From the NCBI RefSeq assembly GCF_964355755.1, contig NC_092674.1:22468001-22532000 (forward strand): a DNA stretch of 64,000 nt. The letters run 5' to 3'. Positions 25,001 through 64,000 of this stretch are shown one piece after another. Positions within the stretch are counted from its first letter, which is position 1; each line of letters opens with the position of its first letter. Position numbers and translations under genes: made by a program. Origin of the DNA: Antedon mediterranea (lineage: Eukaryota; Echinodermata; Crinoidea; Comatulida; Antedonidae). The notes beneath the pieces were generated by a model. That model made no database searches. It had not been told where the DNA came from and was given only the letters and a program-made list of their open reading frames with translations.

Positions 25001-28000
25001 TTATCGTATTCGTAAGATTGCGAAACCTCTCTTTTATCTACCGGGAACACTATAGAAAGAGATTTTTTAGAGGGTTAGATTGAAGTACTTGGTAAACATA
25101 TATCAGAAAGCTATATTCGGAGAGAGAGGGCTCACTACTTGATATTTTGATCCATGTCAAAAGAATACAGCATGAAAGATACAGTAAGTCAGATTTTTAA
25201 TATAAGCTTGTGACGTAACCAATATATCATTTTCCTGAAAACGAATAGGCATTCTGCAAGTATATACCTATTACAGTGATGTATTTAAAGATGTATTGTC
25301 CCTTGAAACACAAAAAAATGAAGGTCAAAATATTCTAAATTTAAAGTGGCCATATCAAAGTAATATTAAAGTTATTCACTTTAAGTCGAAAATTTAAGCC
25401 AAAACAACAAGTTTACGTAATTAACAGGTAAATTAGTTTGATTACATTTCATCTGGAAAATCGTCACGAGCGAAAGTAAACAAAGATTTCAAACCATGAG
25501 TACGCATTATGCATATGCTAAATTAGGATTGTTTACAACTCGTCACGGTTAAGAAGGTATTTTCACACAGATCATGAGGAAGTTTTATGATTATGCATAC
25601 AGAGTAGCCAAACAAGTGCGTTGCATTATGGGATATGTTTTGATTGAAAACTTTGACTGGAAGTCAAAGTTATTTTTTTAACAAAAAAACGTCTGTATTT
25701 CAGTTAAAAAATTGTTTTTTTTCGAAAAATTTTTGGTGATAGTTAATAACTATTATGATACTTCAAAAGACCCACCTTTTTTCGAAATCTTTTATTTTTT
25801 ATTTTTTTGGAATTAGTCAAAGGGACAATACATCTTTAAATAAAGTAATGCTATACATTTTCAATACAAAATTTTGGTAGCAGTTGGATGGTTAATTATA
25901 TAGTTTATTAAACAAACTTACAACTAATAATAATAATTCACAACAAAGAGTAATATATCTTTATTTTCAGTGCTAGTAAGGCAATGTTCTTTTACAACGC
26001 CACTTAGTCTGTAAAATACAGACACTATTAATATAAATATAGTTTATTGCTTATTTATTGTACGTGTTTGTCATATTAGTAAGTTTCGATTGGCTGGTTT
26101 AGAAGACTACCCACACACAATACAAAATATACTTTGAATGTCAATGAAATATGGCATGCGTTTACGATTAATATATCAGTTAATTTTAAAGGATACAAAA
26201 CGATACCTGTTAGGTTACACAAAATAAACATTTTTGCATTGCTTTGAGGTAAGGATGTAAAGTTCAACACTATCAAACATAATATGACAACAAATGTGAT
26301 GTTCCCATGGACATGACATCATATCACTACCATATTTGTGCAAATCACACATTTTTTGTCAAACTAGTTTGATAGTGTAGACAGAGCTTAACCGCACAGC
26401 AAGTAATTTTACCAACTTAACAAGCAATGTATTATCTGACTTGTTGCTTTGTCATTGATCAAGTGGCTTGCTTGGCACTTATGTCCTTGCATTGCTTCAT
26501 AGTTTTAACCCAACTTTATGAATATATTATTTTTATGTATACTTTATTATCACATGATCTGGGTGCTACAAATATGGTATTTAGACTTACTCTGTAGTCA
26601 GGAGGATAGTCTGTAGTGGTGTAATTGTCAGGATAGTCTGTAGTGGTGAAATTGTCAGGAGTTTCTGTAGAATTGAAAGATGGTTTATCGGGACTACGAC
26701 ATAATCCTTCACTTAAAATGTAAGCAGGCAGTCTTATCTCCACAACCATGTCACCATCCCATCTCACTTCAAGACCAAAAGATGTCACAAGAAGTAAGGT
26801 GGCACCACTAAGTGTGATTGTCACATCTTCACTACTGTAAGGTGGTGATACTGCTATGTAGTTAATTTCCATGTACTTATCTTCTTTCATTAGTACTTTC
26901 TAAATATAGAAAAAAAGAAAAATAAATAATATGTGCATTAAAAACTTTGTAATGTATTTGATCAGTATTTAAGTCAACATTTAAAAACTCTCTACAAACA
27001 AAATGTAGAACAATAGAATCAATAAATACAAATTTCAATTTATTTTATTTTATTTATTTATTTATTCATTGGTGCATTCATTTTGTATTATGTTTATTGA
27101 AAATGTCTCTTATTGTTGTTCTTTTATTGCCTGATGTAAGTTATGCATATCTCTTTGTTATTACTAACAAGCTCATAAAAGAATGAATGTATGTATATTA
27201 TATTGTTTGTACAATAGCAATAAAATATATATTTCAATTCAATTCAATAAAACTGATGGGGTATATTTTTTTCTAAAATCATTTTATAATTCACATAGTG
27301 CATCTTTATAATATATTACAAACAAATTCTACCTTTTAATACAACATCTAACTTTTCACCACTATTGTTAAGATGACAAAAATAATCTACAGTACAATTA
27401 CTGGATGCATTATACAGGAAAAAATGCCATGTGTACAAGGATAAAAATGTTAATATATGAGATTGCCATTTAATTGGACTTTTTACAATTAAACAATTTG
27501 GACAATTATCCCATCTGAATCCAAGAAAAAAATGTGTTGGTAGGAATACCTTTTTTTTTTTATTTTTACACATTTTCTCCATTTTTCTCTATTTAAATTA
27601 AGCTATTAAGGAAATAAGAATTCACTGTAGTATTGCCATGTCAGGTATTTATGTTGGTTGTTAAGAGAATATGGGTAAAGAAACCCATTAGTAACAAGTG
27701 ACTGAGCTAAGTAATGCTGTTCAGCAACGTCATTCTGTGAGATTTTCAGACCAAGTTTGAATCTAGTATTCACTGATTCTAATTTTAATTATACACAGCT
27801 GAATCTATTGGAACAATTCATGTGAGTCACTGCATCAACTGACTGACCACTATAGCATGTATTTTTCTCATATTTAAGTAAGTATACAACCTTTAATACT
27901 AATATATAATTATTATTACCAACTACAATAATTTTGTAATATAGACAAAAAAAATAGCATTTGATCATATTTACTGTTTCCTGTCTGAAATGTTACTGAT

Positions 28001-31000
28001 GAGGGAAATGTAAAGGTTGCTACACATTAGGACGATAACGATTAACGATAATAGTAAGCATACATTTTCTTACATGAAACAAAAAAAATTAGAAACGTTT
28101 TCATTTTAGAACTATGGATAACCATTTAAAATGACTTCATGGTCAAAATATTGATCAATATCAGAGGCAGCACAAAAAGGATCCTATAATTCTAGGATGT
28201 AAACTTCAAATTTATTTTATTTTATGTAAGATTAGCATAATTATCTAGTTGTCGTTCGTTATCTAGTATATGGGTCTTAAATAGTGCGTTTGGCACTTAA
28301 TAACAAATGACACAATGTTCAGTGATGGAGAAATACATTAGGAATGCAGTAATCTCACTGTTGGTTACACCATAGAGGAACCTCCATGGTTACACCAGCA
28401 TTTTGTACAGTCTGTGCCTGGTGTGACTGTATAAACCTCAGAGTTTAGGTGATGGGAAGGGTAATAAAATCAAAATAAAACAGGTTTAATTGAGCTAGTA
28501 TAGGTACTGTATATACTGTAGGAATTAACAATGAAGCTTATTGTTTACAATGTTTATACAAGTATATATCACAAAAATTAACACTTTAAACTAATAAATC
28601 TTAATCAATGTGTCAAAAGCAATTAATAATAATAATAATAATAATTTATTTGGAGATTACACTTTTACAACAGTGGCACTCGACCAAATGGAAGGTGCAT
28701 CCAAGAGAAATATAAAAAAAAAAAAAAACATGATATAGAAAATAACAATTACAATAAAAAGTCGACGTAGGTCAACATGTCAAAACAATTCAACTACAGT
28801 AACTACAATACCATTGAACTGACACCTAAAAATACAAAATATAATATCCAATTACTTTAACCCTATTTAAATTACACAATATATATATATATATATAAAG
28901 GAGGAAGTTAAACAAAACCTAACAAGTAATTGGTTCATAAATCTCTAATCCATAAACTGCTCCATTCATTGGAATGGAATTTGAGTAATTTATCTATGTA
29001 TTAAGATTGCATTAAAGGATCAAGTTTAAGCATAAAACCTGAAGAGGTCGTGCTTATACAGGAATCGTTGGCAAGTGATGATACATGGAGATAAACAGAT
29101 TGGGGATCAATTACAGACAATACAACAACTAGTATAGGAGATATTAAAAAATACACACACAGGATACAGGCAGTTCAGAGATATTCAATTCTATGATTAA
29201 CAATACATGGTAAGGAAGCTTTATATTATTGTTATTGCAGCATTGTAGCATGCGTAACACCATGTTTCTTTGTATTTAACATTTGGTAAACTGATTGCAA
29301 GAAGCCCCAAGGGTAAAATCTATCAAAACAATTAACTCATCACCAAGTTTAAGTTGTTACATGGTGTCCTGGATGATTTATTTGGTTAATGTCTTTTGCA
29401 TGGCTTCTAATAGTGCAATTCTGGGGCATGTTTCTGTTACATGATGCCAGATAGCAATTTGAAAATAGATTTTAAAAATATTATTGCTCCCAGGAATTGC
29501 TCCCAAAAAGTCATGCAAATCCAAGGGTGGGGAGGCGTCACCTGGAACGGTCTAGGCCCCACCTAGATACAGATATATACTATAGGGCATTTTACGTTAC
29601 ATAAAGTAAGTTCAATAATCAATGTCAATCAAGTAATCTTTATTTTAAAAGAATAAAGTTGCACAGCGATCACTGGTTAAATGGCGTTACAACACCCATG
29701 GATACGCTTTAGGAACTGTTATTTTAGAACACTATTTAACAGGTTGGGCCTATTTAAAAATGTTCCTCTTTCTGCTTCCAAAGAAATCATAGGTTCATTC
29801 ACATGGGATTTAATGTGTTATTTTTGCAACAAGGTTGTATTGTGTGAAAAAACTTTATTCTTTTCATGATAGCATAAAAGACTGATTTTAAACACTTTTA
29901 CTATTTCTAAAATATCGCCATGTTAAATGATATTTGCAAAAGTGACTAAAACTTTTCAAAACATTGGTAAACAGTAAATCATGATGTTCTAAAAAAACTA
30001 CTACTTAAAATTGATCTGAATTAAACAGATATTGAAAAACACTAACCTCATATTTATGTGGCGGATGTTTTATTTATGTAGGCTTTTAATGTCTTTTGTG
30101 TGGTTTCAAGTAAATTACACTTTTTGTAGTGCATCGTATTAATTATTTTCCCATATGTTCATTTCTTTTAATTAATATATGAAATAAAATTATTGCAAAT
30201 GTATTAACAAATCATAACAATTTAAAATATTTGAATAAAATCCTCCTTAGGTGTATTTGTTGGAAAGATCCAATGAATATACATTCATAAAATAAAAGGA
30301 GTGCCCGTTTGTACTTCTGTAGAACGATAACAATCAACCTCCAATAAGTAGATAATACAAAAGACAAACAAAATAAAAAAGTTTTCCTATTTATGTTGTC
30401 CAATCAGATAACATAGTAAGAGCAATAATAATGTGATGACACAACATTTTATTGATCATGAAATCATTTGATTGAATTTTAAAAAATATTACACATTTTT
30501 ATAAAAAATCTACAGTTCTAGAATAAAATTGTTTTTCTCTCTTTTGCTTTATGCAAGTGAAATAATTATGTATTTATCGTTGATGGTTATCGTCCTCTCA
30601 TATACATGCATTATGACTCCAAATAAGTGCTTTCTACCTTTTAAAAAACTCTCATGTTATTACATAATGATGTATCTTATGAAAATAAAATTGAAGTTTA
30701 AACATTCAAATTGATCTGTTTGAACATTTTAAAGAAGTTTAGTAAGTGGTTTATTTTTTGTAAAGTGTTAGTGTAAAGCACTTGGAAGAGAAGGGGTATA
30801 ACTGGCAGGCAACTAGTAAGTGGTTTATTTTTTGTAAAGTGTTAGTGTAAAGCACTTGGAAGAGAAGGGGTATAACTGGCAGGCAACTAGTAAGTGGTTT
30901 ATTTTTTGTAAAGTGTTAGTGTAAAGCACTTGGAAGAGAAGGGGTATAACTGGCAGGCAACTACTGCCTTAATGAAAGAAATAATATGATTTAATTAGAA

Positions 31001-34000
31001 TCTATGAGGAAAATCGTTAAAATACATAAAAAGTGGTCGATAACAATAATTACTGACACTGCAAATAAACATGTTTATAAAAAAATTTCCAGGATAGGCC
31101 AAAAACCTTATTAGCTTATATCTGTATATTATTATTTCCTGTGTCAAAATAAACGTATTAATACAAAGATATAACAGTAAACAAAATAATCCAATCGAAA
31201 ATAATCACGTTTTTGCGACTTTGTGTTATATTCGTATACCAGCTTTAATAATAGTACAAACCGATAACATTTTACAGTGTCCATAAAACATATTTTTAAA
31301 TATGTTTTATGGGTCTAACTATATTCACAAATGAGTGAATATGCACTTAAATATTCATATGTAGTAATGTACATTTAACAAATTATATTTTAAATTTATA
31401 TCATAAAATGTTATGATGTTATTGTACAGTAGTACTAGTAGAAAGAGTTTTAATAATGTCATTTGCTTTCACAGAATTAATCTCATTCTTTCTTGATTTA
31501 ACTTCTGGATAAGTCTATCAAAACTAGTTTTTGACTGCCAAAATTGGATGGTTATTTATGACCCTGTAGGAAAAATGTTGGCCATGGGTGATATTTGATC
31601 ATGAAAAGTCTTTATTTGAAGGAAGTTTTTAAATGTGGGGCTCCTAATTGGAAGGCGACCTAAATACTAATGATAACAAATAGTTAAGCAATTGGATCAA
31701 CACAAATCCATATTAACATTTAGTTTCATATTTGAACGGTTATAAAAGGATTCACTTCGTTTTACCTTTACTTTATCCAATTGCTTCCTGTATCGCAGGC
31801 ACAATAAAACAGGAAGATAGTCAAATCCATGGCTATAGCCTTGGAATGAATTGAACAGAACGCTATTGTACAAAAGCACTATAATTGGCATCAGGAGACA
31901 TCACAGGACTATCATTAAACTATGAATAAGTAAGTGTTCACATTTTTTCTTCAATTTATATCAAACTAAAAGTTAATTTTTGTTTCTTTCCAATAGTTAT
32001 TTATTGTTCTCTTTCTGGTTCCCAGGGGAATATAGACATATTGCAGAGAATATAATTTCATGTAGGCTAAATGTCTACTAAATTTTTGTGATTACCATTA
32101 TTGTGGATATGAGTTGTATACTGATGTTATGCATTAAAAATGTAACTGGTACCTATTAATATTATGTATATACAGTGGAACCGTAATCACGTAGCCATAA
32201 CATCGGCAGGGGTTCGAGGCTCACTCACTCCATGGTTCTGGTGGTAGAACAAGTCTACTCGGATAAAAACTATAAACTGTAGTCTCGTGTGCACTTTAAA
32301 AAACCTACTGTAGTACATCTTTCGAGACGAGTAGGGGGTTACCCCGGTGTATTAGTACATCACAGCCACTGATCACCAACTGGGCCCTCTGGGAGATCAG
32401 TCTTTGACTGAAGAGGTCACCCAGTATAAAGATAAAACAAACAAAACAAACAATATTTTAAGGCTTGAAATTTCCATATACAGTATGAGGCAGATACCAG
32501 GGTATGTTGATAGACGTATGTTATACTCTAAGGTTATACTATACTAGAAATCCTTGTTCAAAGGGGGAATAAGAATAATATTGAATTTTAATGAAATATC
32601 TATCTTTAAAAACCATTTCAATTTAAACATGTAAGCAGAGTTTGAAACTGATTTTTGTTGTTCAAACAGTTTCAACACAAATAAGTTTGCATGTTCACAA
32701 CCAAGTTTAGCACCTGTTTGGTCTTTCCGTGCCTCCTTTTAATTGTTTTGTCCTCTTTGTTTATGTATATGGCAGAAATTGAATAAATAAAAAAAAAAAA
32801 AAAAAACACTTTTGCAAATCTAACACTCAAACACATGTTTGAATGCGAATAGCAATTCACATTTTTTTAAATTGAAGTGATCAGCAATGATTTGTCAACA
32901 GTTTTATTTGTAATTTCTGTTTTTGCTACACAACACTTTACTGTTTATTATTTAAAAACAATTATAAAAAAAAAATATATAATTTCTGTTTTTTTGTGCT
33001 CTTAAAAAATTCATATTCAATAAAAATCGTTCAGACAAATGGTCATCGACGAAAAATGTTAGCATTACTCAAATACAATGCGCTCAGGATGGTAAATGTT
33101 AGAAAACTCAAGGTCAACAGCAGTCAATCAAATAACCATGATTTTGTGTTATAGCTAAGTTGCACAGCGATAACTTAAATATTTAATGTTCCAACACACA
33201 TTGGGTGATTTTAACCATTCTTTTGAGAAGCAATTTAACTGCTTATTTGAATTTTCTGCTGTCATGAAATAGGAGGACATTTTTTATCTATTCACACAGT
33301 TATTAATAAGGGGTTTTTTGTAGCAGAAATAGGTAGCCTACTACTGAGTTAGAAAATGACAGTAGTTTTTATTCAAACAGTTTCTAACCTTCATGCCTGT
33401 CATATCTAGAGCAGGCAGTTTACCTTGGTTTCTTCATACTCAATGTCAGTAGACAAATCCAGAACCACTTAGTGAAATTGGAAACAAATGTTTGAGCAAC
33501 AAAAATTACATTCAAAAATTGTTCTTAAATCTCTGAAAAGTTTTTCAGTAGATATTTAACATTCTGTTATGCGGGTTCTCAACAGTTTTCTAGTGACGGT
33601 CTTGTAGTAATTTATAAAAAAAAAATCTTGCGCCCCAGATAGAGTATAGCGTTATGGGTGGGTTTGAGCCTTGGAGAATCTCATGGGATTTCAGGATATT
33701 ACATCTTTTTTATTTACTTATTTTTTAGCAATAACTCTTTGCGTGCCGTACCATATTAAGTGCACTCTAAAGGCGCATTTGGTTTTTGCCTCGGCTGTTG
33801 AGAACCCCAATTTTACAATTTTTTGTTGAATTTCTTTCACATTAAAAAAATTATAGTTTTTTTTTTCTACTCTTTTAGCCTGGTAACTAGCATTCTCTAT
33901 TTCCTAATGATTGAATCTACAATTTACAAGTCATATGGATCCCCAACTTGTCACCCGTCGAGGTCAACTTGGAAGGAAACTGATGACCCAGCAGTATGTA

Positions 34001-36392
34001 TAGTGGATAACAACAACCCAGCACCACAGTTTAGTATTAATGGTATAGAGGTTCCAAGCAATAGAATTAGTACTACACGAAATGGCCCTACTACAGAACA
34101 CCGATACCAACCATCACGATATGATAGTGGTCAAATTATGTTGTGTTCTGTTTTTGATAGCATGAATTGTACATTTGAATTCACAACAGTTGTCTACATG
34201 CCAAATGTTACGGTAACCAGGCTGTCACAGGATGAATTTTCATGTACTGTTGATGCAAACCCTTTGACTACTATTTTTTGGACCTCTGACCCAGATTACA
34301 TCCTTCGATTTACAAACAAGGGAAATACCAAAACTCATTCTTCCAAGTCTGTTTTAATTGTAAATGACCCATCCAGGATTTCAGATGACACAACTTTTAC
34401 ATGTTCTATGAGTAATGACATGGGATATGATAGTGTGACAATATCATATAAGACTATGACATCAACAACTGAAATTAACACTGACGAAGAAAATGTTACT
34501 ATTGAAAACGTAGGCCTATCCACAAGCACGCGGTTTCCTTTAACCAAAAACCCTAATGACAGCCGCGGTTCACCAACTGTTAATTGGACAGTTGCAAAAA
34601 GTGAGAATACGTCTACCTCTAAGAAATCAATATCTTTGTTGATGATATTAGCAATCATTGGCGGTATATTATGTTTGTTAATATTAGTGTTAATTGGTTT
34701 GCACATTCACAAACACTCTTATGACAGTCGCCGCAATACCGAAACCAAAAACGATGAAAATTCAGACCCTATTTATGCAGAGTTAAACATAATTAATATA
34801 CCGCAAAATAACACAGAACAAAATTATACTTCAGTAATAGACCCTGTTGCTACAACGAGTATTATCAGCAACCATTATGAACAATTGCCAGAAATTATTT
34901 CTAATCACGTAGAAACTCCAAGTGATCCAACACTTGAACAGTCTTCGTTCAATGATTCTGAGTGTGTAGACCAAGTTGAATGTACTATTCAAGAGCTGGA
35001 CAGTACCCCGTCAGAAAACAGTCCAGAGGAAGCGCCCTCATACTTTGTACTCGAGAAAGATGATGAGGAAGAGGAAAATGTTACTATTTATGAAGATATT
35101 AATGATAAACAAATTAATAACAATCAAAACGATGATAATGATTTGGATGATCAAAGACGTCTTAGTTCTACAGTACCGGCGGATGACAGTAATATTTATG
35201 CTGAAATTGGAAATATTAGTAAAGACTTTGTAGACCATGAAAATGAGATATATGAATCTATTGAAGCCAAGACACAAGAGTAATAAGTACCTTTTTGTTT
35301 TTTGGCAGACTTAAAAACATTAAAAACATTTAATGATAATTAAATTTGAGGAAATCGTTTCTTTTATTTAACATTTTTGTATATCTGCTATGGAGATTTC
35401 ATTGGGAACATCTCAGGTTTGTTGTTCTCAGTTGCCCCTGGATTTTGTATCCCAGGTCTCGGCAGGTTAAAAGTGTGAATATATCTACAATTTCTCATCC
35501 CTATTTATGGTTTTGACCTTTTTTCTAATGGTGATGACATCATTCATCTGCTTCATAAACAAATACTGCTTTAATAATAATTTACTTTAAATGATTAGGT
35601 CTATTATTGGTCTGTTATAGCTGACATTAGACGGAGAACAACAAAAATCCGACGGGAGGTTGCATCGTTTTATCCCACCATAATAATTACAACTATAACA
35701 CAATTCTGAATATCACTGTATTACTGTGCATCTTCCTATAATATTAATAATGTTGTAGAGTTATTATTTATAATATATTTTTCTTTTAGTTTATTTCCTA
35801 TATGAAATTTCTTAATCCGATAATATTATTAATAATTTTTGGCTGTGAAAACATTACAGCTTATACAACATTTTTACCATCTGTTATAATTTACGATAAA
35901 AAAAAACCCAGTTCTAACATCATAAAATTAGGTTAGAAATTATTCATGGTTGACTCATGAAACTACATCATTGTGAAACAATAGAAGGTTAAAGAGTAAC
36001 ATAATTATTTGGCCTGTTTTTACCGCCTGCAAATAACTGGTTAAATTGAGTGTGGCTACTTGGAAGTAGAAACGGTGTTTAAAATGGCATTCTTAAAATT
36101 AATGACACCAAAATGCTTGCCATTTATTTATTTATTCTGTTTATTTATTCAGGTTTATAGTAAAAATATGCAGTCAGGAAGGCTGAAATTGTTGATTTAC
36201 AAAAATATATATATATATATATATATATTTGCACTGATGAAGGGCTAGTGTTGCCTGAAAGCTCTGCTAACTTTTCTGGCTGTTTACTTTATCGTTTTGA
36301 TTTAGCTTTTCGCTTTTTATTTTTGTATCTCCATTGAGATCCAGCCACTGATACCCACAGCATTGTCATTTTTTTCAGTAATTTGCCTTTGG

Positions 36393-36430
<38 letters not shown>

Positions 36431-39400
36431 AATTACAAATGTATACTATATAAAATAAGTTTGATCAAATATTTAAAATTTTATAAAAAAATACAATTTT
36501 TAAAAGACAGTTAAAAGTTGAGTTAAATCTTCTATAAAATTTAAATAAAAAATGCATATTATAAATAGCTTCGCAGCGTGTGATCAATTTAATTACTGTT
36601 TAAATTTAGGATTCTACTTATAGTAAAGGCAGGCGAGGTCTTAAGATGGTTGGTCCTATTAACAGGTACATTAAATAGGGGTTTATCTACCAAGGTTGAT
36701 GTAAGCTCTCTAGTAATAATGCGGTAGTCAAGCAGAATAAAGGCCCATTTACACTAGGACAATAACGATGGACGATAAATATATAAACATGCATTTTTTT
36801 TACATAAAACAAAATAAATTAGAAAGGTTTTCGTTCTAGAACTATAGGATAATCATTTATGCTGTCTTTGATAATAATAATATTTTTAAAATTCCAATCA
36901 AATGACGTCATGATAAATAAAAACAATAAAATCGTTGTATTGTCACGATATTATTGCTCTTACTAATCATGACGTCATTGATTGGACGTGTGAAAATATC
37001 ATTTTCATCAAAGGAAGCATAGAAGGTTATTCTATAGTTCTAGAATGAACAGTTTTTATATTTCTTTTGTTTTATGTATGAAAAATGCATTTGTCTATTT
37101 ATCGTCGATCGTTATCGTCCTAGTGTAAATGGGTCTTGACCGATAATTAACATTTATAGGTAAAGCACCAAATTCATACAGCTTTGCTGATTTTTTTTTT
37201 CTTTTTGGCTTCTCAAATAACTTGTGTTTCCCCCTCTTCCTAATGATACAAAATGGATCAGTTACCGGAATTCAGTTTTTATTCCCAGCAGAAGAAACAT
37301 GTCCTTAGATCCTTCTGGATAATATAATATATTTGTATTAAATTGAATTACAAGTTTAAATAATGCTATAGTAAATCAAATGTAAATAATTTGCCATATT
37401 TATTTGTCATATTTATGTTATGATTTATCAATATTAATAATGATTTTAACAGTGACTTATTTGTGTCATTTATTTTAATATTTTTTACCTCAAATGTAAT
37501 TTAGATTACAGATTGTAAGATTTGATGACAAACCTTATAATTTAATTTTGAGTAAATATCGTATAAAATGGTATGGATTTACTATTTAATGTAATAAGGT
37601 GTAAAGTTTATTTCCTAATTCTAAATCTTCATCATCGTAATTTCTACAATCAACATATTGATTATTACGAAACAAGATGCCTACTTTAAAGATGTATTGT
37701 CCCCCAAAAACATGAAAAATGAAGATTAATTAAATCAGACTTTGAATAGGTTATTTTGTAGTTTTAATTAAGTTAATTACTTCCGTAGAAAAAAAAAACC
37801 GAAAAAATTTTCAATTTGACCATTTTTTGCTTTAAATTCCAGTTTTTTCAGGTAAATAAATTTGTTTTGGATTCAATTTTTAGTCGAAGTCAATAACTAT
37901 TATGTGACATTAGAATGGCATACTCAACAACAAAAATTTTATAAATTATTTTTCAGGGAGACAATACATCTTTAAGTAGTGGCTGTGTGTGACAGTGGTG
38001 TGAATTAGTACACTGGGGTAACTACTTGTCTCGAAAGATGTACTAGGTTCTTTAAGCACACTGGACATAACGTGTATAGTCCTAATCCAAGAAGAATTGT
38101 TCTACCACCCGAACAATGGAGCGAATGCAGCTCGAACCCTTGCCGATACTATGGTTACTGTATGTATTACATTTTCGCTGTCTTAACCACTCCATAAAAA
38201 AGTTATTTATATGTATAATTTTAGTGAATAGATATAAAAAAAATGATTTTAACACAAGTTTTAAAAGATTTCAATTTGTTCTATCAGATGTTGCCATTAT
38301 TTAGAAAACTCAAGCAACTCATACACTTTTTATAACTCATCATCTTGGTAATTTTTTTTAAAATAAAGTACCAATTTAAAGAGATTTAATTATGTAAATC
38401 ATTTATTTATTTATTATTACTTGTATAGTGCACATTTATACAACATTTAATTATAAATCAGCAGCGTTTCACATCAATTAGTATCGTAACATTGTTTGAA
38501 ATATAGTGCCTTTAAATGTTTTTAAATTGATTATTAGTCGTCTAAGTGTTTAATGTGACTTGGTAAACTGTTCCAAATTTTGGGTCGTGCTACGGCAAAC
38601 GAACGGTCAGCAAATTTCTTTCGTTTAGTTCGTGGGATTGTCAGGTTAACATTGCTGGTGCTTGAACGTGTACTGCGAGAAACATTAATTATAACTGATG
38701 TCTCAAAATATTAGTATACAGTGACAGGGAGACGAAACATTTTGAGGTGCTGAAAATCACATAGCTATATTTAAAATTGAAATCTGCTGAAAATTTTCCA
38801 CAAGATGAGGACAGAATAAACTTGAACATTAGAAATTTAAATAAAATATTTAAAAGATTTTTGAGATTTAAAATGTGCAAACAAAAATGGGATAAATTAA
38901 AAGCTGACAATTTTTTTAATTTTTTTTTTGGGCAATGCCAGCCAGTATATATTGTTGTATATATACATTTTGATTTAAATAATCTTCATCTTTATAGTAT
39001 GATATTGATGGTTGATGGAAGTTACAAAAATAATCTTTTTACTGATCTTTTTTCTTATAAATAAAATTGTTTGTTTTTCTGATAAAAGAAATAGAAGTAG
39101 TTTTATTAAAAGAAGAAGATTATCCTATCACAAATAATTTACAATATTATGTATCGATCATTTTTATAATAAATAGAATTGGCATAAAATAACTTAATTT
39201 ATTTTTCTTGTCGAATGAAAAACTAGAATATAAATAGAAAATGGAACAAATTTCAAATTCTACAACCTATTTGTTTAAAACATTATGCATAAGGAAACTA
39301 TAAATTTTACAATTATATATTTTCAAAGAAAACAAGCATATTTCTACAGCTAATGGTCAGGCCTTGTCTTTTAAGGCGGGTGAGTGCGATCACTCACCTA

Positions 39401-42400
39401 AAACACTCCTAAACAGCCCTTGAGGAGTGCGATTTACAAGTTACAACACGCTTAAATACAAACAGCACACCTACAAGAGTGCAATTTGTAGCACACCTAT
39501 AATTTTCAAAAGATAAGGCCGGAATGGTATGATGTGCAATTTTCAGATTGAAAGTACTGTATACCATACACCTTTATCAATTGGGTATGACATCACAAGT
39601 ATAGTTGTTTTTCTAACTCCAAGAATATGTCTGCTGCACCTATAAGTTAGCATAAACCAGTACGCTAATATATACAACAATTTAAATAATGTAAACAAAG
39701 TAAAATCATACAAATTAGCTAAAAAAATTAAAGAAAAAAAAACGACTTGTTGTGCCAAAGATGCCATTAAATCCAATTTCCAAGTAACCTTCCAACATTA
39801 TCTTGTTTTACATATTTATTATTATTATTGCTTCCTGTAGTGTAACACAACATTGGAATAGTATTAAACAGAAAATGCTTAGGTTGTATGGAAGCAACAT
39901 CGTATTTGTATCAGGAAACGAAATACCACATCATATCACTATGAATAAGTAAGTGCTGACATTTTCTCTTCAATCTATATCAAAACTCAAACATTTAAAT
40001 GTTAGCTACTTATTGACATGCCCTTTTTATTTCTAAAAATTAGACATTTCAAAGAATAAATGTCATATAGGCAAGTTAAAGCCCCATTCCCTACGTTTTT
40101 TAGATCTAATTTAAGATCACAAACTATATTTAATGTAAAAATAATACTATATGGTCCTATTGCGATAACTTTTTTCGTCTTTAAACGGTTAAAAATGTGA
40201 AAAATAAATCGATTCTAATAATTATAGCGGCCCGCTATAAATCCCAAAATGCATTGCGCGCGGATTGATATTTTTGTTTTTCACCTGTAATTCGCCCACT
40301 TTTCGATCGATCGTGAAGCCAAAACAAATGGAAGACTCCTAACTTTTCAGCGAAAATACCGGGTTTTCCCCAATTTGTATCAACGGAGTCTGGCAAAAAT
40401 AGAAAGACAATTAATGCAGCAACTATACAACGTCAGGCTAGGTATATAGCTAGCGTACGATGTTCGTACGTTATCGATGTTTACCAGCTAGGCCTACAAA
40501 ACTAAGCCTAGCTAGGCTAGGCCCAAGACCGTCCACGAGAGGTCGATCGCCGCGAGCTACTTAGGTAGTGCATTGTTTCTCACTTTTTATCATAATTTAC
40601 CATAAAACGTACATTTAAGACAAGGAATGACATGGTTTAATGTTTTTAAAGTGATATATATGTATTATTTTCCAAAAAACGTCCAAAATTGCAGGGAAGG
40701 GGTCTTTAAAGGGCTAGAAATTTATCAAAATCTAACTTAGTAAAATCAGCAACTTAACTAGTGTAGCAAGCAAATGTTTTGGTAAATTACAAGTTTGGTA
40801 GTTTGAATTTCGAGCAATGTAACTTGAGTAAAAGTATGGTGTGAACCATGATACAGTTAACCTAAAATAGTTGGTAACTTAACTAAGTTGTTGCATCGTC
40901 TGTCTGGAATCCTGTTGTGATATTTAACAGGCCTTGTTGAATTTATATCTTTCCAGGTAAGAAAAGTATACTGTGATATGTTTTTCTGTTTATTGTTTTA
41001 GCCTGGTAACTGGCATTCTCTATTTTCTATTGATTGAATCTACAATATATCAGTCATATGGATTCCCAAAATGTCACCCGTCGAGGTCAACTTGGAAGGA
41101 AACTGATGACCCAGCAGTATGTATAGTGGATAACAACAACCCAGCACCACAGTTTAGTATTAATGGTATAGAGGTTCCAAGCAATAGAATTAGTACTACA
41201 CGAAATGGCCCTACTACAGAACACCGATACCAACCATCACGATATGATAGTGGTCAAATTATGTTGTGTTCTGTTTTTGATAGCATGAATTGTACATTTG
41301 AATTCACAACAGTTGTCTACATGCCAAATGTTACGGTAACCAGGCTGTCACAGGATGAATTTTCATGTACTGTTGATGCAAACCCTTTGACTACTATTTT
41401 TTGGACCTCTGACCCAGATTACATCCTTCGATTTACAAACAAGGGAAATACCAAAACTCATTCTTCCAAGTCTGTTTTAATTGTAAATGACCCATCCAGG
41501 ATTTCAGATGACACAACTTTTACATGTTCTATGAGTAATGACATGGGATATGATAGTGTGACAATATCATATAAGACTATGACATCAACAACTGAAATTA
41601 ACACTGACGAAGAAAATGTTACTATTGAAAACGTAGGCCTATCCACAAGCACGCGGTTTCCTTTAACCAAAAACCCTAATGACAGCCGCGGTTCACCAAC
41701 TGTTAATTGGACAGTTGCAAAAAGTGAGAATACGTCTACCTCTAAGAAATCAATATCTTTGTTGATGATATTAGCAATCATTGGCGGTATATTATGTTTG
41801 TTAATATTAGTGTTAATTGGTTTGCACATTCACAAACACTCTTATGACAGTCGCCGCAATACCGAAACCAAAAACGATGAAAATTCAGACCCTATTTATG
41901 CAGAGTTAAACATAATTAATATACCGCAAAATAACACAGAACAAAATTATACTTCAGTAATAGACCCTGTTGCTACAACGAGTATTATCAGCAACCATTA
42001 TGAACAATTGCCAGAAATTATTTCTAATCACGTAGAAACTCCAAGTGATCCAACACTTGAACAGTCTTCGTTCAATGATTCTGAGTGTGTAGACCAAGTT
42101 GAATGTACTATTCAAGAGCTGGACAGTACCCCGTCAGAAAACAGTCCAGAGGAAGCGCCCTCATACTTTGTACTCGAGAAAGATGATGAGGAAGAGGAAA
42201 ATGTTACTATTTATGAAGATATTAATGATAAACAAATTAATAACAATCAAAACGATGATAATGATTTGGATGATCAAAGACGTCTTAGTTCTACAGTACC
42301 GGCGGATGACAGTAATATTTATGCTGAAATTGGAAATATTAGTAAAGACTTTGTAGACCATGAAAATGAGATATATGAATCTATTGAAGCCAAGACACAA

Positions 42401-43515
42401 GAGTAATAAGTACCTTTTTGTTTTTTGGCAGACTTAAAAACATTAAAAACATTTAATGATAATTAAATTTGAGGAAATCGTTTCTTTTATTTAACATTTT
42501 TGTATATCTGCTATGGAGATTTCATTGGGAACATCTCAGGTTTGTTGTTCTCAGTTGCCCCTGGATTTTGTATCCCAGGTCTCGGCAGGTTAAAAGTGTG
42601 AATATATCTACAATTTCTCATCCCTATTTATGGTTTTGACCTTTTTTCTAATGGTGATGACATCATTCATCTGCTTCATAAACAAATACTGCTTTAATAA
42701 TAATTTACTTTAAATGATTAGGTCTATTATTGGTCTGTTATAGCTGACATTAGACGGAGAACAACAAAAATCCGACGGGAGGTTGCATCGTTTTATCCCA
42801 CCATAATAATTACAACTATAACACAATTCTGAATATCACTGTATTACTGTGCATCTTCCTATAATATTAATAATGTTGTAGAGTTATTATTTATAATATA
42901 TTTTTCTTTTAGTTTATTTCCTATATGAAATTTCTTAATCCGATAATATTATTAATAATTTTTGGCTGTGAAAACATTACAGCTTATACAACATTTTTAC
43001 CATCTGTTATAATTTACGATAAAAAAAAACCCAGTTCTAACATCATAAAATTAGGTTAGAAATTATTCATGGTTGACTCATGAAACTACATCATTGTGAA
43101 ACAATAGAAGGTTAAAGAGTAACATAATTATTTGGCCTGTTTTTACCGCCTGCAAATAACTGGTTAAATTGAGTGTGGCTACTTGGAAGTAGAAACGGTG
43201 TTTAAAATGGCATTCTTAAAATTAATGACACCAAAATGCTTGCCATTTATTTATTTATTCTGTTTATTTATTCAGGTTTATAGTAAAAATATGCAGTCAG
43301 GAAGGCTGAAATTGTTGATTTACAAAAATATATATATATATATATATATATTTGCACTGATGAAGGGCTAGTGTTGCCTGAAAGCTCTGCTAACTTTTCT
43401 GGCTGTTTACTTTATCGTTTTGATTTAGCTTTTCGCTTTTTATTTTTGTATCTCCATTGAGATCCAGCCACTGATACCCACAGCATTGTCATTTTTTTCA
43501 GTAATTTGCCTTTGG

Positions 43516-43551
<36 letters not shown>

Positions 43552-46500
43552 AATTACAAATGTATACTATATAAAATAAGTTTGATCAAATATTTAAAAT
43601 TTTATAAAAAAATACAATTTTTAAAAGACAGTTAAAAGTTGAGTTAAATCTTCTATAAAATTTAAATAAAAAATGCATATTATAAATAGCTTCGCAGCGT
43701 GTGATCAATTTAATTACTGTTTAAATTTAGGATTCTACTTATAGTAAAGGCAGGCGAGGTCTTAAGATGGTTGGTCCTATTAACAGGTACATTAAATAGG
43801 GGTTTATCTACCAAGGTTGATGTAAGCTCTCTAGTAATAATGCGGTAGTCAAGCAGAATAAAGGCCCATTTACACTAGGACAATAACGATGGACGATAAA
43901 TATATAAACATGCATTTTTTTTACATAAAACAAAATAAATTAGAAAGGTTTTCGTTCTAGAACTATAGGATAATCATTTATGCTGTCTTTGATAATAATA
44001 ATATTTTTAAAATTCCAATCAAATGACGTCATGATAAATAAAAACAATAAAATCGTTGTATTGTCACGATATTATTGCTCTTACTAATCATGACGTCATT
44101 GATTGGACGTGTGAAAATATCATTTTCATCAAAGGAAGCATAGAAGGTTATTCTATAGTTCTAGAATGAACAGTTTTTATATTTCTTTTGTTTTATGTAT
44201 GAAAAATGCATTTGTCTATTTATCGTCGATCGTTATCGTCCTAGTGTAAATGGGTCTTGACCGATAATTAACATTTATAGGTAAAGCACCAAATTCATAC
44301 AGCTTTGCTGATTTTTTTTTTCTTTTTGGCTTCTCAAATAACTTGTGTTTCCCCCTCTTCCTAATGATACAAAATGGATCAGTTACCGGAATTCAGTTTT
44401 TATTCCCAGCAGAAGAAACATGTCCTTAGATCCTTCTGGATAATATAATATATTTGTATTAAATTGAATTACAAGTTTAAATAATGCTATAGTAAATCAA
44501 ATGTAAATAATTTGCCATATTTATTTGTCATATTTATGTTATGATTTATCAATATTAATAATGATTTTAACAGTGACTTATTTGTGTCATTTATTTTAAT
44601 ATTTTTTACCTCAAATGTAATTTAGATTACAGATTGTAAGATTTGATGACAAACCTTATAATTTAATTTTGAGTAAATATCGTATAAAATGGTATGGATT
44701 TACTATTTAATGTAATAAGGTGTAAAGTTTATTTCCTAATTCTAAATCTTCATCATCGTAATTTCTACAATCAACATATTGATTATTACGAAACAAGATG
44801 CCTACTTTAAAGATGTATTGTCCCCCAAAAACATGAAAAATGAAGATTAATTAAATCAGACTTTGAATAGGTTATTTTGTAGTTTTAATTAAGTTAATTA
44901 CTTCCGTAGAAAAAAAAAACCGAAAAAATTTTCAATTTGACCATTTTTTGCTTTAAATTCCAGTTTTTTCAGGTAAATAAATTTGTTTTGGATTCAATTT
45001 TTAGTCGAAGTCAATAACTATTATGTGACATTAGAATGGCATACTCAACAACAAAAATTTTATAAATTATTTTTCAGGGAGACAATACATCTTTAAGTAG
45101 TGGCTGTGTGTGACAGTGGTGTGAATTAGTACACTGGGGTAACTACTTGTCTCGAAAGATGTACTAGGTTCTTTAAGCACACTGGACATAACGTGTATAG
45201 TCCTAATCCAAGAAGAATTGTTCTACCACCCGAACAATGGAGCGAATGCAGCTCGAACCCTTGCCGATACTATGGTTACTGTATGTATTACATTTTCGCT
45301 GTCTTAACCACTCCATAAAAAAGTTATTTATATGTATAATTTTAGTGAATAGATATAAAAAAAATGATTTTAACACAAGTTTTAAAAGATTTCAATTTGT
45401 TCTATCAGATGTTGCCATTATTTAGAAAACTCAAGCAACTCATACACTTTTTATAACTCATCATCTTGGTAATTTTTTTTAAAATAAAGTACCAATTTAA
45501 AGAGATTTAATTATGTAAATCATTTATTTATTTATTATTACTTGTATAGTGCACATTTATACAACATTTAATTATAAATCAGCAGCGTTTCACATCAATT
45601 AGTATCGTAACATTGTTTGAAATATAGTGCCTTTAAATGTTTTTAAATTGATTATTAGTCGTCTAAGTGTTTAATGTGACTTGGTAAACTGTTCCAAATT
45701 TTGGGTCGTGCTACGGCAAACGAACGGTCAGCAAATTTCTTTCGTTTAGTTCGTGGGATTGTCAGGTTAACATTGCTGGTGCTTGAACGTGTACTGCGAG
45801 AAACATTAATTATAACTGATGTCTCAAAATATTAGTATACAGTGACAGGGAGACGAAACATTTTGAGGTGCTGAAAATCACATAGCTATATTTAAAATTG
45901 AAATCTGCTGAAAATTTTCCACAAGATGAGGACAGAATAAACTTGAACATTAGAAATTTAAATAAAATATTTAAAAGATTTTTGAGATTTAAAATGTGCA
46001 AACAAAAATGGGATAAATTAAAAGCTGACAATTTTTTTAATTTTTTTTTTGGGCAATGCCAGCCAGTATATATTGTTGTATATATACATTTTGATTTAAA
46101 TAATCTTCATCTTTATAGTATGATATTGATGGTTGATGGAAGTTACAAAAATAATCTTTTTACTGATCTTTTTTCTTATAAATAAAATTGTTTGTTTTTC
46201 TGATAAAAGAAATAGAAGTAGTTTTATTAAAAGAAGAAGATTATCCTATCACAAATAATTTACAATATTATGTATCGATCATTTTTATAATAAATAGAAT
46301 TGGCATAAAATAACTTAATTTATTTTTCTTGTCGAATGAAAAACTAGAATATAAATAGAAAATGGAACAAATTTCAAATTCTACAACCTATTTGTTTAAA
46401 ACATTATGCATAAGGAAACTATAAATTTTACAATTATATATTTTCAAAGAAAACAAGCATATTTCTACAGCTAATGGTCAGGCCTTGTCTTTTAAGGCGG

Positions 46501-49500
46501 GTGAGTGCGATCACTCACCTAAAACACTCCTAAACAGCCCTTGAGGAGTGCGATTTACAAGTTACAACACGCTTAAATACAAACAGCACACCTACAAGAG
46601 TGCAATTTGTAGCACACCTATAATTTTCAAAAGATAAGGCCGGAATGGTATGATGTGCAATTTTCAGATTGAAAGTACTGTATACCATACACCTTTATCA
46701 ATTGGGTATGACATCACAAGTATAGTTGTTTTTCTAACTCCAAGAATATGTCTGCTGCACCTATAAGTTAGCATAAACCAGTACGCTAATATATACAACA
46801 ATTTAAATAATGTAAACAAAGTAAAATCATACAAATTAGCTAAAAAAATTAAAGAAAAAAAAACGACTTGTTGTGCCAAAGATGCCATTAAATCCAATTT
46901 CCAAGTAACCTTCCAACATTATCTTGTTTTACATATTTATTATTATTATTGCTTCCTGTAGTGTAACACAACATTGGAATAGTATTAAACAGAAAATGCT
47001 TAGGTTGTATGGAAGCAACATCGTATTTGTATCAGGAAACGAAATACCACATCATATCACTATGAATAAGTAAGTGCTGACATTTTCTCTTCAATCTATA
47101 TCAAAACTCAAACATTTAAATGTTAGCTACTTATTGACATGCCCTTTTTATTTCTAAAAATTAGACATTTCAAAGAATAAATGTCATATAGGCAAGTTAA
47201 AGCCCCATTCCCTACGTTTTTTAGATCTAATTTAAGATCACAAACTATATTTAATGTAAAAATAATACTATATGGTCCTATTGCGATAACTTTTTTCGTC
47301 TTTAAACGGTTAAAAATGTGAAAAATAAATCGATTCTAATAATTATAGCGGCCCGCTATAAATCCCAAAATGCATTGCGCGCGGATTGATATTTTTGTTT
47401 TTCACCTGTAATTCGCCCACTTTTCGATCGATCGTGAAGCCAAAACAAATGGAAGACTCCTAACTTTTCAGCGAAAATACCGGGTTTTCCCCAATTTGTA
47501 TCAACGGAGTCTGGCAAAAATAGAAAGACAATTAATGCAGCAACTATACAACGTCAGGCTAGGTATATAGCTAGCGTACGATGTTCGTACGTTATCGATG
47601 TTTACCAGCTAGGCCTACAAAACTAAGCCTAGCTAGGCTAGGCCCAAGACCGTCCACGAGAGGTCGATCGCCGCGAGCTACTTAGGTAGTGCATTGTTTC
47701 TCACTTTTTATCATAATTTACCATAAAACGTACATTTAAGACAAGGAATGACATGGTTTAATGTTTTTAAAGTGATATATATGTATTATTTTCCAAAAAA
47801 CGTCCAAAATTGCAGGGAAGGGGTCTTTAAAGGGCTAGAAATTTATCAAAATCTAACTTAGTAAAATCAGCAACTTAACTAGTGTAGCAAGCAAATGTTT
47901 TGGTAAATTACAAGTTTGGTAGTTTGAATTTCGAGCAATGTAACTTGAGTAAAAGTATGGTGTGAACCATGATACAGTTAACCTAAAATAGTTGGTAACT
48001 TAACTAAGTTGTTGCATCGTCTGTCTGGAATCCTGTTGTGATATTTAACAGGCCTTGTTGAATTTATATCTTTCCAGGTAAGAAAAGTATACTGTGATAT
48101 GTTTTTCTGTTTATTGTTTTAGCCTGGTAACTGGCATTCTCTATTTTCTATTGATTGAATCTACAATATATCAGTCATATGGATTCCCAAAATGTCACCC
48201 ATTGAGGTCAACTTGGAAGGAAACTGATGACCCAGCACTATGTATAGTGGCTAACAACCACCCAGCCCCAAAGTTTAGTATTAATGGTACAGGGGTTCCA
48301 AGCAATAGAATTAGTACTACACGCAACGGACCTACTGCAGAATACCGGTACCAACCATCACGATATGATAGTGGTCAAATTATGTTGTGTTCTGTTTTTG
48401 ATAGCATGAATTGTACATTTGAATTCACAACAGTTATCTACAAGCCAAATGTTACGGTAACCAGGCTGTCACAGGATGAATTTTTGTGTACTGTTGATGC
48501 AAACCCTTTGACTACTATTTTTTGGACCTCTGACCCAGGATACATCATTCGATTTACAAATAAGGGAAATACCAAAACTCATTCTTCCAAGTCTGTTTTA
48601 ATTGTAAATGACCCATCTAGGATTTCGGATGACACAACTTTTACCTGTTCTATGAGAAATGAAATTGGAAATGATAGTGTGACAATATCATATAAGACTA
48701 TAACATCAACAACTAAAATAAACACTGACGAAGAAAATGTTATAATTGAAAACATATCCACAAACACACTGTTTCCTTCAAACAAAAACCCTAATGACAG
48801 CCGCGGTTCACAAACTGTTAACTGGACAGTTGCAAAAATTGAGTCAATTTCTCCCAAATCGCTACCCATTTTGATGATAATAGTAGGAAGAGGTCTTTTA
48901 ATATTAGTGCTGGTTGCTTTATACATTTACAAACTATGTAACAGTCGCCAAAACACTGAGTCCAAAAAATGATAAGAATTCAGACCCTATTTATGACTTA
49001 AAAATATATGCGGCAAAATAACAATCCAAACATTTATTTCTGCATAGAACCTGTTGTTACCTCCCGCAATGTACATGCCATAAGTTTAGTTATTGATTTG
49101 TTTTACGTAGCACCAGCAGCATGAGTTTTGATTTAATTTTGCTGAATTACTGCAATTACGCAAACAATACACTTTTCATTGCAGTGATTTTAATACCAAA
49201 TATATTCTATACATTTTAGCAGTACACTGTATGTATACTAAATTCTGTGGGCCTACAGTATATCACTGCAAACTATAACTGCTATTGCTATATATAAAGT
49301 CATTGATTGTACTATTATTCAGTAATGCTTTGGTAATGGGTAACAGGCAGTGAACACTAAACCAATCATGTCTCGCTCTCAATATTTTTTATTCAATTAA
49401 TATATGTGTTGATCCATATTCATCCAATAAAGCAACAATCATTCAAAAATAAAACCGAACTGTGAAACCATAACAAGGAAAAAACATTTCAGTATTTCTC

Positions 49501-52500: not shown

Positions 52501-55500
52501 AAAGGAGGGATTTTTTATAAATAGTGGTGCCCACATGTTATGTTTCTTTTAAATATTAATCTATTAATATAATATAATAAATTGCTTATTATAGCGCTTT
52601 AACCAAAGTGCTTTATTTTATTTATTTTTTTTTTATTTATTCGACTTCTCACTAACTCAGTTAGTGAAGGATCTGGACCAACAGGTGGTAAACACCTCTA
52701 AAACGGTCCAGTCCCAATTTGCACAGTGGCTGTGTGTGACAGTGGCTGTGTTTGTGTGGACTAGTACACCGGGGTAACCTCCTACTCGTCTCGAAAGATG
52801 TACTAGGTTCTTTAAAGTGCGCATGAGCTATGTGTACACTGGACCTACGGTTTATAGTCCTTATCCGAGAAGACTCGTTCTACAGTACCACCAGAACCAT
52901 AGAGCGAGTGAGCCTCGAACCCTTGCCGATGTTATGGCTACGTAATTACGGTTCCACTGTCTTAACCGCTCGGCCACTCACTCATATATAATATAATAGA
53001 TCATAAAGTAATGAGCTTTAATAAAGATGACACTCGGCCACAGTCTTGACTTAAATAATAATAAATTTAACAATACATACGGACATCACAATTGTCTCCT
53101 CCAATGCCAAGAGGACAGACACAGGTAGGGGCTCCACCTTCACAGACGATACACTCTCCAAGACCACAAGGATAATTTGAACATGGATCATCTGTTTAAA
53201 AAAAAAAAAGAAATATAGAATTAAATAAGAAAATTTGTAACTTTTAAATTTCAGCACTGAGCATACTTGTTGATTCACATGTTCTATTTGGTTGCAAATT
53301 TTACTGCGACTATTAAAAAGTTAAATTTATTTTGATTCAAGATTAATAATTTATTGTCCATAAACTGGAAATGAGAAAAAAGAAACAAAATTGTAAAATA
53401 CATTTAAACATCAAAAGAAAAAAAACCTGTATCATCGTTTTCAAGCTTAACTTGATCAGATTAGGACCTCTATTGACGCACGGCAGACAGAAGAGAAGCG
53501 AGATAATTCCCTACTCTTTTTAACAGTGCACAAATTTTTTGCACTATATGTACAAGGGACCAATATTATTTTGTCCCATCCGGATAAACTATAGTCATTT
53601 TAATTTAAAACAATAAGGTTTAAAGCTCAGGTACAGGCATGAATTTTAAATATAATATCTGGTTAATTGTACATAAATCAAATATTTGTAACAGAAATCA
53701 AGACGAAAAAACATGAATTTCCCCTACTATGGTCAAATACAAAATTTGGTCAAATACAAAATTTGGCAAAATTCTGCCTAAAAAACTAGGAAGACTTTTT
53801 TTCAGTAGTTAGATAGTTAACTTAATGTAATAACATGTCTGGTGACTCCCTAGAAGGTGAAAAAAGATAGTGGATATACGGTGGATAATTTTTGCTATAG
53901 CATGAAAATAAAATTCTGAAGTTGAATAAAAATACCAGAAATGTAAAATTCAAGTTATATTACCTATATTTAGTCATCTGATAACATTTTTTACCACACC
54001 GTTTATTTTTCATAGCTTTTTAAAATGCCTCTCTATTTTCAAAATTTGTGTACAAAAGAATAGAGATTTTACTGTGTAATTTGAACTATACCCCCACTGA
54101 TATGAAAGTGCTAATTTTCAAAAAGCTCGCGTAACACAAATAAAATCCCAACAATTATGAAACATATGGGAAACTATAGATCGATAATTATTGGAATGTA
54201 TGATCAATAGAAATGTTTTGCCTGCACCTGGCCTTTAACATGTTTCTCACACAATGAAGAGCTACAATTATGTTTTCTATTATGATGATGATGAATTATT
54301 TATTTTTAAACCTACAAAAACAGCTTATTAAATTTGAGATTTTTGGCAGCACAACAATGTTTTTTTTGTCATGGCTTAAATATAGATTTTCAAATTGATA
54401 TATTTGGTATTGGACCTTGTGTCTCCACTGACTAAACTATTGTTCTATTTTAAGTAGAGGTCAACAACCTAAGTACAGGATTTCCTGTGGTAAAATAATC
54501 ATTTTCATTTTACGAATGTTTTTCTTATCTTTTTTTCTTTCACATTTATATCTAGCGTTAATGAACTTTTAAACACAGGAAGGAATATACAGAACAATCT
54601 TTTTTTGGGACACCCCTATTCAAGGGACATTTTCCTGAAGTTGTCTCCTTTTAATTTAGTGGGCACACCTATTAAGGAAACACTTTCATCCAACCCCTGT
54701 TCAGTGGACATCACTATTAGGAGGACACCACTATTAAGAACACACTTTGTAGAGCCTAAGGTGTCCCCTTAATAGGGATTCACCCTGTATGTACATTTAG
54801 AAAACATATTTACCTGCAGTCCAACAGGTGCGCCAACCTCTTGGCTCATAGAACCTATCAGCACTAAATAAAAACCAAGCAGAATCTCCATCTATAACAA
54901 AGTCATTTGGTGCAGAATAACCATCAAAAAGTTGATCTGGATAAGTAACACCTTGATTAAGATCATCAAGACTTGGAGGCTCCAAGCCTGGACCAACAAA
55001 CAAAGCATCGCGATCTTCTTCCACCTCAAATAGTGGTTCAAATCGGAAGTATAGGTTATTAGCGCCTTCATAACTGACAAGGTACAGAACATCGTAAGAG
55101 CGATTATAGCTGTCGGGGTAGTTGGGAGATTCAAAACAGCCGGTCATACATCCTGCTCCTATGCATGTAATCGTCTCTATTTGTACTATTTAAAAAATAT
55201 TATAATATTAATAAGTCAGTTGAGCTGATATACATATAATATTTATTAAATTATTTTCATGGTCTTGACTATTATACATTTGAAATCAAAATATGGATTT
55301 AACATCATAAACTTCCTATTTGAAAATACATCTTTGATCTGCTATATGATAAAACCAGAATGGGCTGATTTTTTGGGCTTCAACAATACAAAAGACCTAA
55401 AAGGAGAAATATAATAAATAAGTTATTGAGTATGTATGAAGAAACAGCAATTCAACAGTCAGGTGCTGTAAGTGAAATGACAACAGGCACAATGCACACC

Positions 55501-63777: not shown

Positions 63778-64000
63778 CTGAAAAAGAATTCAAAAGTGTA
63801 TCAGATGATATTAAAAAGAATGTTTCAATGTTAGTGGAACCACCTGTGATTTGCTGTATTGGTGGACATAGATGTTAGACAACATCCACACACACTTCTC
63901 TCCTAAGGGTCTTCATATCTTTTTAATGGCTATAAACAGTGCCTATTCCACAGTCCATAACAGGGGCTGAGACAAACCACAATACTGTAGTAAACACCTA
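63778..64000. other. Intron reaching the window edge
   Basis: No exon seen; the next upstream exon, expected to be the second half of a C8 domain, lies outside the window. Confidence 0.5.

Follow-up and report, generated by a model that had tools for sequence, protein, structure and literature searches.

The KIR, LILR, SIRP and NITR families set receptors with a short tail and a basic membrane residue against receptors with a long tyrosine tail. The same arrangement is found in a trio of neighboring immunoglobulin (Ig) receptor genes, here called copies 1, 2 and 3, on the plus strand of a 64,000-nucleotide (nt) stretch of DNA from the crinoid echinoderm Antedon mediterranea (hereafter the window). 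The locus holds a crinoid two-Ig receptor whose long tail carries conserved tyrosine motifs (copies 1 and 2), together with a short-tail paralog, apparently derived (copy 3). A paired-receptor-like set is possible, though unproven. Unlike the receptors of those families, the crinoid genes encode nearly the whole protein, tail included, in one exon, and the long tail has no strict immunoreceptor tyrosine-based inhibitory motif (ITIM).

Neighboring receptors with similar ectodomains and different signaling parts have been described before. Gene conversion keeps the Ig ectodomains of the paired receptors Siglec-11 and Siglec-16 alike while their signaling parts differ (PMC5701461), and the same has been reported for dog CEACAM1 and CEACAM28 (PMC2110893). 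Copies 1 and 3 share with both pairs the pattern of similar ectodomains joined to divergent membrane segments and tails. The block converted between the dog genes spans the 5' flank, leader exon, intron 1 and N exon; crinoid copies 2 and 3 share the 5' flank, exon 1 and intron 1. The dog paper also describes relatives bearing an immunoreceptor tyrosine-based activation motif (ITAM), whereas copy 3 has no tail motif. We found no sequence kinship with either pair, from which the crinoid set again differs in lacking a strict ITIM and in being known from sequence alone.

Tyrosine-bearing tails also occur on Ig receptors of invertebrates. In the non-vertebrate deuterostome Botryllus, fester/FcoR receptors can have long tails with core YxxI/L/V motifs, to which no function is assigned (PMC12065747). 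Because Botryllus FcoRs show such tails outside the vertebrates, the paired-receptor reading of the crinoid genes is plausible. FcoRs, as described there, combine one V and one sushi domain with two C2 domains and may carry ITIMs or hemITAMs, whereas the crinoid receptors have two Ig domains, with no Pfam sushi match in copies 1–3 or in their Anneissia relative (P0002, below). Unlike the FcoRs in that description, the crinoid partners differ by tail loss. In Hydractinia, genes considered candidates for allorecognition are reported to bear ITAM and ITIM motifs (PMC12065747). The oyster has CgIgIT2, an Ig receptor whose five Ig domains are combined with a tyrosine activation motif, a classic ITAM, and no short-tail partner appears in the passages available (PMC11999971); the crinoid receptors have two Ig domains. 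Open-access papers on paired receptors of echinoderms, sea urchins, amphioxus and invertebrates in general included none on an echinoderm set, as judged by titles and abstract openings.

Results

Copy 1 encodes a 470-residue protein identical to NCBI protein P0001 of A. mediterranea, whose sequence fixes the gene model as an 8-base exon 1, an intron and one large exon 2 (Table 1). That second exon encodes ectodomain, membrane segment and tail, nearly the entire protein. A GTAAG donor and a TTTAG acceptor are common to all three copies, and the copy 3 product has 285 residues. The protein-database cluster that contains the copy 1 protein has two members, presumably copies 1 and 2.

Pfam matches place copies 1, 2 and 3 in the Ig superfamily. 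I-set and C2-set_2 models match above their cut-offs in each copy, with general Ig models matching as well; the strongest C2-set_2 match falls within domain 1 of copy 3 but within domain 2 of copies 1 and 2. When profiles were compared with solved structures, eight weak matches resulted, led by nectin-1 at an expectation value (E) of 0.005. The PDB sequences listed at E up to 1, 6 in one search and 8 in another, include no KIR, LILR or SIRP chain, the weak best matches being NCAM and nectin-1, which argues that the crinoid receptors are not members of those families. Two AlphaFold models had mean predicted local distance difference test scores (pLDDT) of 34.4 and 39.6, the second with fair confidence only for the second Ig domain and the membrane helix. 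A Foldseek search with this second model gave no match at E <= 0.001, and its list indicates only that the protein is Ig-like.

The three copies divide by membrane segment and tail. A first-pass annotation of this DNA had described an uncharged membrane segment and seven YxxPhi motifs in copies 1 and 2, and residue and motif checks agree: copy 1 residues 252 to 278 contain no K, R, D, E or H, copy 2 is identical in that stretch, and the motifs of both lie at residues 302, 319, 336, 391, 407, 443 and 461. Its description of copy 3, with Arg259 in the membrane segment and a tail of about a dozen residues, was equally accurate; the arginine is followed by YIYK and a tail of 12 residues. The basic membrane residue is thus confined to the short-tail copy, the one such case, and is absent from copies 1 and 2 and from the Anneissia relative. 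Motifs were scored against the general ITIM, ITAM and immunoreceptor tyrosine-based switch motif (ITSM) consensus patterns. One tail motif, TIYEDI, fits the ITSM pattern, and one pair of motifs, 12 residues apart, fits a loose ITAM pattern.

Comparison with a second crinoid family suggests which form came first. Profile searching with E values up to 10 added a single protein, LOC117108829 (P0002, 508 residues) of Anneissia japonica (Comatulidae), which is 41% identical to the Antedon protein at 99% coverage, although its Ig match falls below the Pfam cut-off (I-set 13.8 against 23.7). P0002 has a long tail and an uncharged membrane segment, and no short-tail Anneissia protein was among the matches of that search. 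Six of the seven Antedon tail motifs are also YxxPhi in P0002, the ITSM-like TIYEDI is retained, and tail motif columns are identical in 26 of 35 cases as against 55 of 146 outside the motifs (p = 1e-4). Since the motifs are kept between Antedon and Anneissia, the tyrosine tail is a conserved part of the protein that presumably signals. Six ectodomain cysteines are conserved across copies 1 and 3 and P0002. Because this outgroup, a single protein, has the long tail and the uncharged membrane segment, it is strongly indicated that the long-tail, uncharged form is ancestral and that copy 3 is derived.

Copies 1 and 3 are probably older than their ectodomains suggest. The first-pass annotation had noted near-identical two-Ig ectodomains on copies 1 and 2 and on copy 3; DNA identity between copies 1 and 3 is indeed 91.5% to 92.7% over the ectodomain, as against about 69% over the membrane segment. 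By windows of 60 bases, exon 2 identity runs at 89–100% up to 34599 and then at 69–81% across the membrane and juxtamembrane segments. The best single break, at 34614, takes the mismatch rate from 0.07 to 0.31 (0 of 300 permutations as strong), and within the ectodomain the two copies are identical for up to 87 consecutive bases (p = 0.04). At synonymous sites, divergence reaches 0.85 in the membrane segment (14.8/29 sites) but 0.11 in ectodomain residues 31–245 (14.5/142 sites), a contrast with p = 2.4e-6 when rounded to 15/142 and 15/29 sites, which rules out an equal age for all parts of the two genes. Toward the 5' end, good alignment is limited to 55 bases around exon 1 (87%) and to the bases immediately preceding the acceptor (33820–33879, 77% identity). 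These comparisons strongly indicate that the copy 3 ectodomain was homogenized with that of copy 1 while the membrane segment was not, and gene conversion or repeated crossing-over in the ectodomain is the simplest account.

Copy 2 has a different history. At the exon 2 sites that distinguish copy 1 from copy 3, copy 2 agrees first with copy 3 and then, after a single switch, with copy 1 throughout; the first site listed, just 5' of exon 2, matches neither. A copy-1-like gene and a copy-3-like gene thus underwent unequal crossing-over, and copy 2 is the resulting chimera, joining the copy 3 upstream region, exon 1, intron and leader to the copy 1 body. Copies 1 and 2 are accordingly not two independent long-tail members and count as one long-tail case. 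The two units of the resulting tandem duplication, 7131 and 7129 bases, are identical apart from a 2-nt length difference in a (TA)n run. So near-perfect a 7.1-kb repeat may instead be a duplication made in assembly, leaving one long-tail and one short-tail gene, but the junction in exon 2 is a clean single paralog switch, as recent unequal crossing-over yields, and we consider an artifact improbable. It would concern copy 2 only and is compatible with any reading of copy 3. Provided the assembly is correct, the DNA upstream of copies 2 and 3 is the same except for the TA run, so that co-regulation would be favored. On the same proviso, the 41072–48200 duplication would have placed long-tail copy 2 under the promoter of short-tail copy 3. 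An intergenic imperfect palindrome of about 400 bases (81%; 36740–37137 and 43861–44258) was copied with the duplication.

Copy 3 lost its tail and otherwise kept its frame. It carries one extra base in an A-run beside the stop, a frame-shifting insertion at the start of the tail. About 110 bases past the stop are related to the first 137 bases of the copy 1 tail used in the test (none of 300 shuffles scores as high), and the remaining, distal tail has no detectable relative behind the stop (170 of 300 shuffles score as well). Nor was the distal tail displaced to another part of the window, where tblastn with copy 1 (E up to 10) returned only the copies and weak scattered matches. Before the tail, all 285 codons are open, the splice signals are intact, and the four coding indels relative to copy 1 (6, 6, 12 and 3 nt) are all in-frame. 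The ratio of nonsynonymous to synonymous substitution rates (Ka/Ks) is 0.47 (0.30–0.70) over the open reading frame (ORF) and 0.38 (interval 0.14–0.93) over the non-converted membrane and juxtamembrane segment. In a relative-rate test, copy 3 has 14 derived changes and copy 1 has 9, a non-significant excess in a small test that leaves out gapped columns and 27 unpolarized differing columns. The intact frame and the lack of a significant rate excess mildly favor function, and we lean somewhat toward a functional copy 3, whether signaling through a partner or acting as a decoy.

The Ig genes lie between minus-strand ORFs at 8373–26899 and 54797–63874; those on one flank encode VWD and C8 domains, those on the opposite flank CUB, HYR and TIL domains. 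Nine of these ten ORFs matched Pfam, one VWD match lying below the cut-off, and together they could form one very large gene with the Ig genes inside its intron. A 74-base unit is repeated perfectly in tandem about three times at 30740–30963, shortly before copy 1. A dispersed repeat of up to about 200 bases and 77–87% identity recurs around the Ig genes (32172–32376, 37989–38192, 45110–45313 and 52753–52971). Farther away, an inverted pair of about 790 bases (9137–9907 and 11253–12040, 93% identity) lies beside a minus-strand ORF without a Pfam match (10318–10776). Rfam gave no match in the window at gathering scores.

Table 1. Features of the Ig-receptor genes and of the tandem duplication, in window positions
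Feature	Position	Strand	Description
Copy 1 exon 1	31922..31929	+	ATGAATAA, first 8 coding bases; agrees with P0001 N-terminus MNNLVT
Copy 1 exon 2	33879..35283	+	Remainder of leader, two Ig domains, membrane segment, tyrosine tail, stop; Pfam I-set model scores above its cut-off
Copy 1 cytoplasmic tail	34717..35280	+	Seven YxxPhi, six also YxxPhi in Anneissia japonica
Copy 2 exon 1	39941..39948	+	Inside stretch identical to that of copy 3
Copy 2 exon 2	41002..42406	+	Copy-3-like leader, then copy 1 ectodomain, membrane segment and tail
Copy 3 exon 1	47062..47069	+	
Copy 3 exon 2	48123..48972	+	Leader, two Ig domains, membrane segment with Arg259, 12-residue tail, TGA stop
Arg259 codon AGA, copy 3 membrane segment	48889..48891	+	
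Decayed proximal tyrosine-tail remnant 3' of copy 3 stop	48978..49086	+	Shuffle test, 0/300 reach score
Tandem duplication, first unit	33949..41079	+	7131 bases
Tandem duplication, second unit	41072..48200	+	7129 bases
Switch interval, copy-3-type to copy-1-type sequence in copy 2	41072..41079	+	

Discussion

We favor, at a probability of roughly 0.45, a model in which the derived short-tail copy 3 is still displayed and signals differently from the long-tail receptor through a partner of Arg259. Phosphorylated tail tyrosines of the long form would recruit SH2 proteins. Copy 3 would stand at the cell surface and meet the same ligand, and Arg259 would reach an adaptor or co-receptor, giving the short form its different signal. 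Such a set would resemble paired receptors in anatomy. The first-pass annotation had proposed a paired-receptor-like set by analogy with the vertebrate split into inhibitory and activating receptors. Its shared ectodomain, opposite tail types and basic residue in the short-tail form stand, whereas an inhibitory nature of the long tail is unsupported: 0 of the 7 tail YxxPhi motifs fit the strict ITIM, [ILVS]xYxx[ILV]. A fuller version, an independent crinoid paired-receptor set in which the short-tail partner engages an ITAM-type adaptor, conversion matches the ectodomains and the duplicated promoter co-expresses copies 2 and 3, appears unlikely.

The missing ITIM weighs against the signaling model, as do several further observations. 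A single short-tail gene is known here, and hence a single case of tail and charge occurring together. No copy 3 protein appeared among protein-database matches, in searches admitting candidates of about 155 to 833 residues. The intact ectodomain is by itself no sign of function, because conversion can refresh it. In the dN/dS comparison proposed in the first-pass annotation, Ka/Ks over ectodomain residues 31–245 is 0.52, with an interval (0.28–1.07) that includes neutrality; by our own reckoning, a pseudogene decaying on one branch would show about 0.6, inside the ORF interval. Under simulated neutral drift, the segment is still hydrophobic and free of stops after 26 substitutions in 18% of runs (45% at 13, 28% at 20, 10% at 35 and 3% at 53), and 12–22% of surviving segments carry a basic residue, in runs that start from copy 1 instead of the inferred ancestor and ignore indels.

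Much of this would also be expected if copy 3 were a decaying paralog that lost its tail by frameshift, acquired Arg259 by drift and had its ectodomain refreshed by recombination with copy 1. The frame-shifting insertion and decayed tail behind the stop, the ectodomain homogenized with that of copy 1, the missing database protein, the basic residues produced by drift and the ectodomain Ka/Ks compatible with neutrality all speak for decay, which we regard as a real possibility at somewhat less than even odds. Against it stand the open codons, the intact splice signals, the restriction of pre-tail indels to in-frame lengths, the Ka/Ks of the non-converted segment and the non-significant rate excess. 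These same signs of function would fit a working tail-less decoy, a ligand sink that damps the long-tail receptor without a signaling partner and in which Arg259 is incidental, and the upstream DNA common to copies 2 and 3 would co-express the two. Basic residues in the middle of a membrane segment, however, generally require an acidic partner, and copies 1 and 2 have no acidic residue there; a decoy seems to us a poor bet.

Should copy 3 work, an echinoderm would also have followed the vertebrate route to activating receptors, through tail loss, a basic membrane residue and ectodomains matched by conversion. A copy 3 in decay would still leave the locus with a crinoid Ig receptor whose tyrosine tail is conserved between two crinoid families, and a clear example of unequal crossing-over building chimeric receptors.

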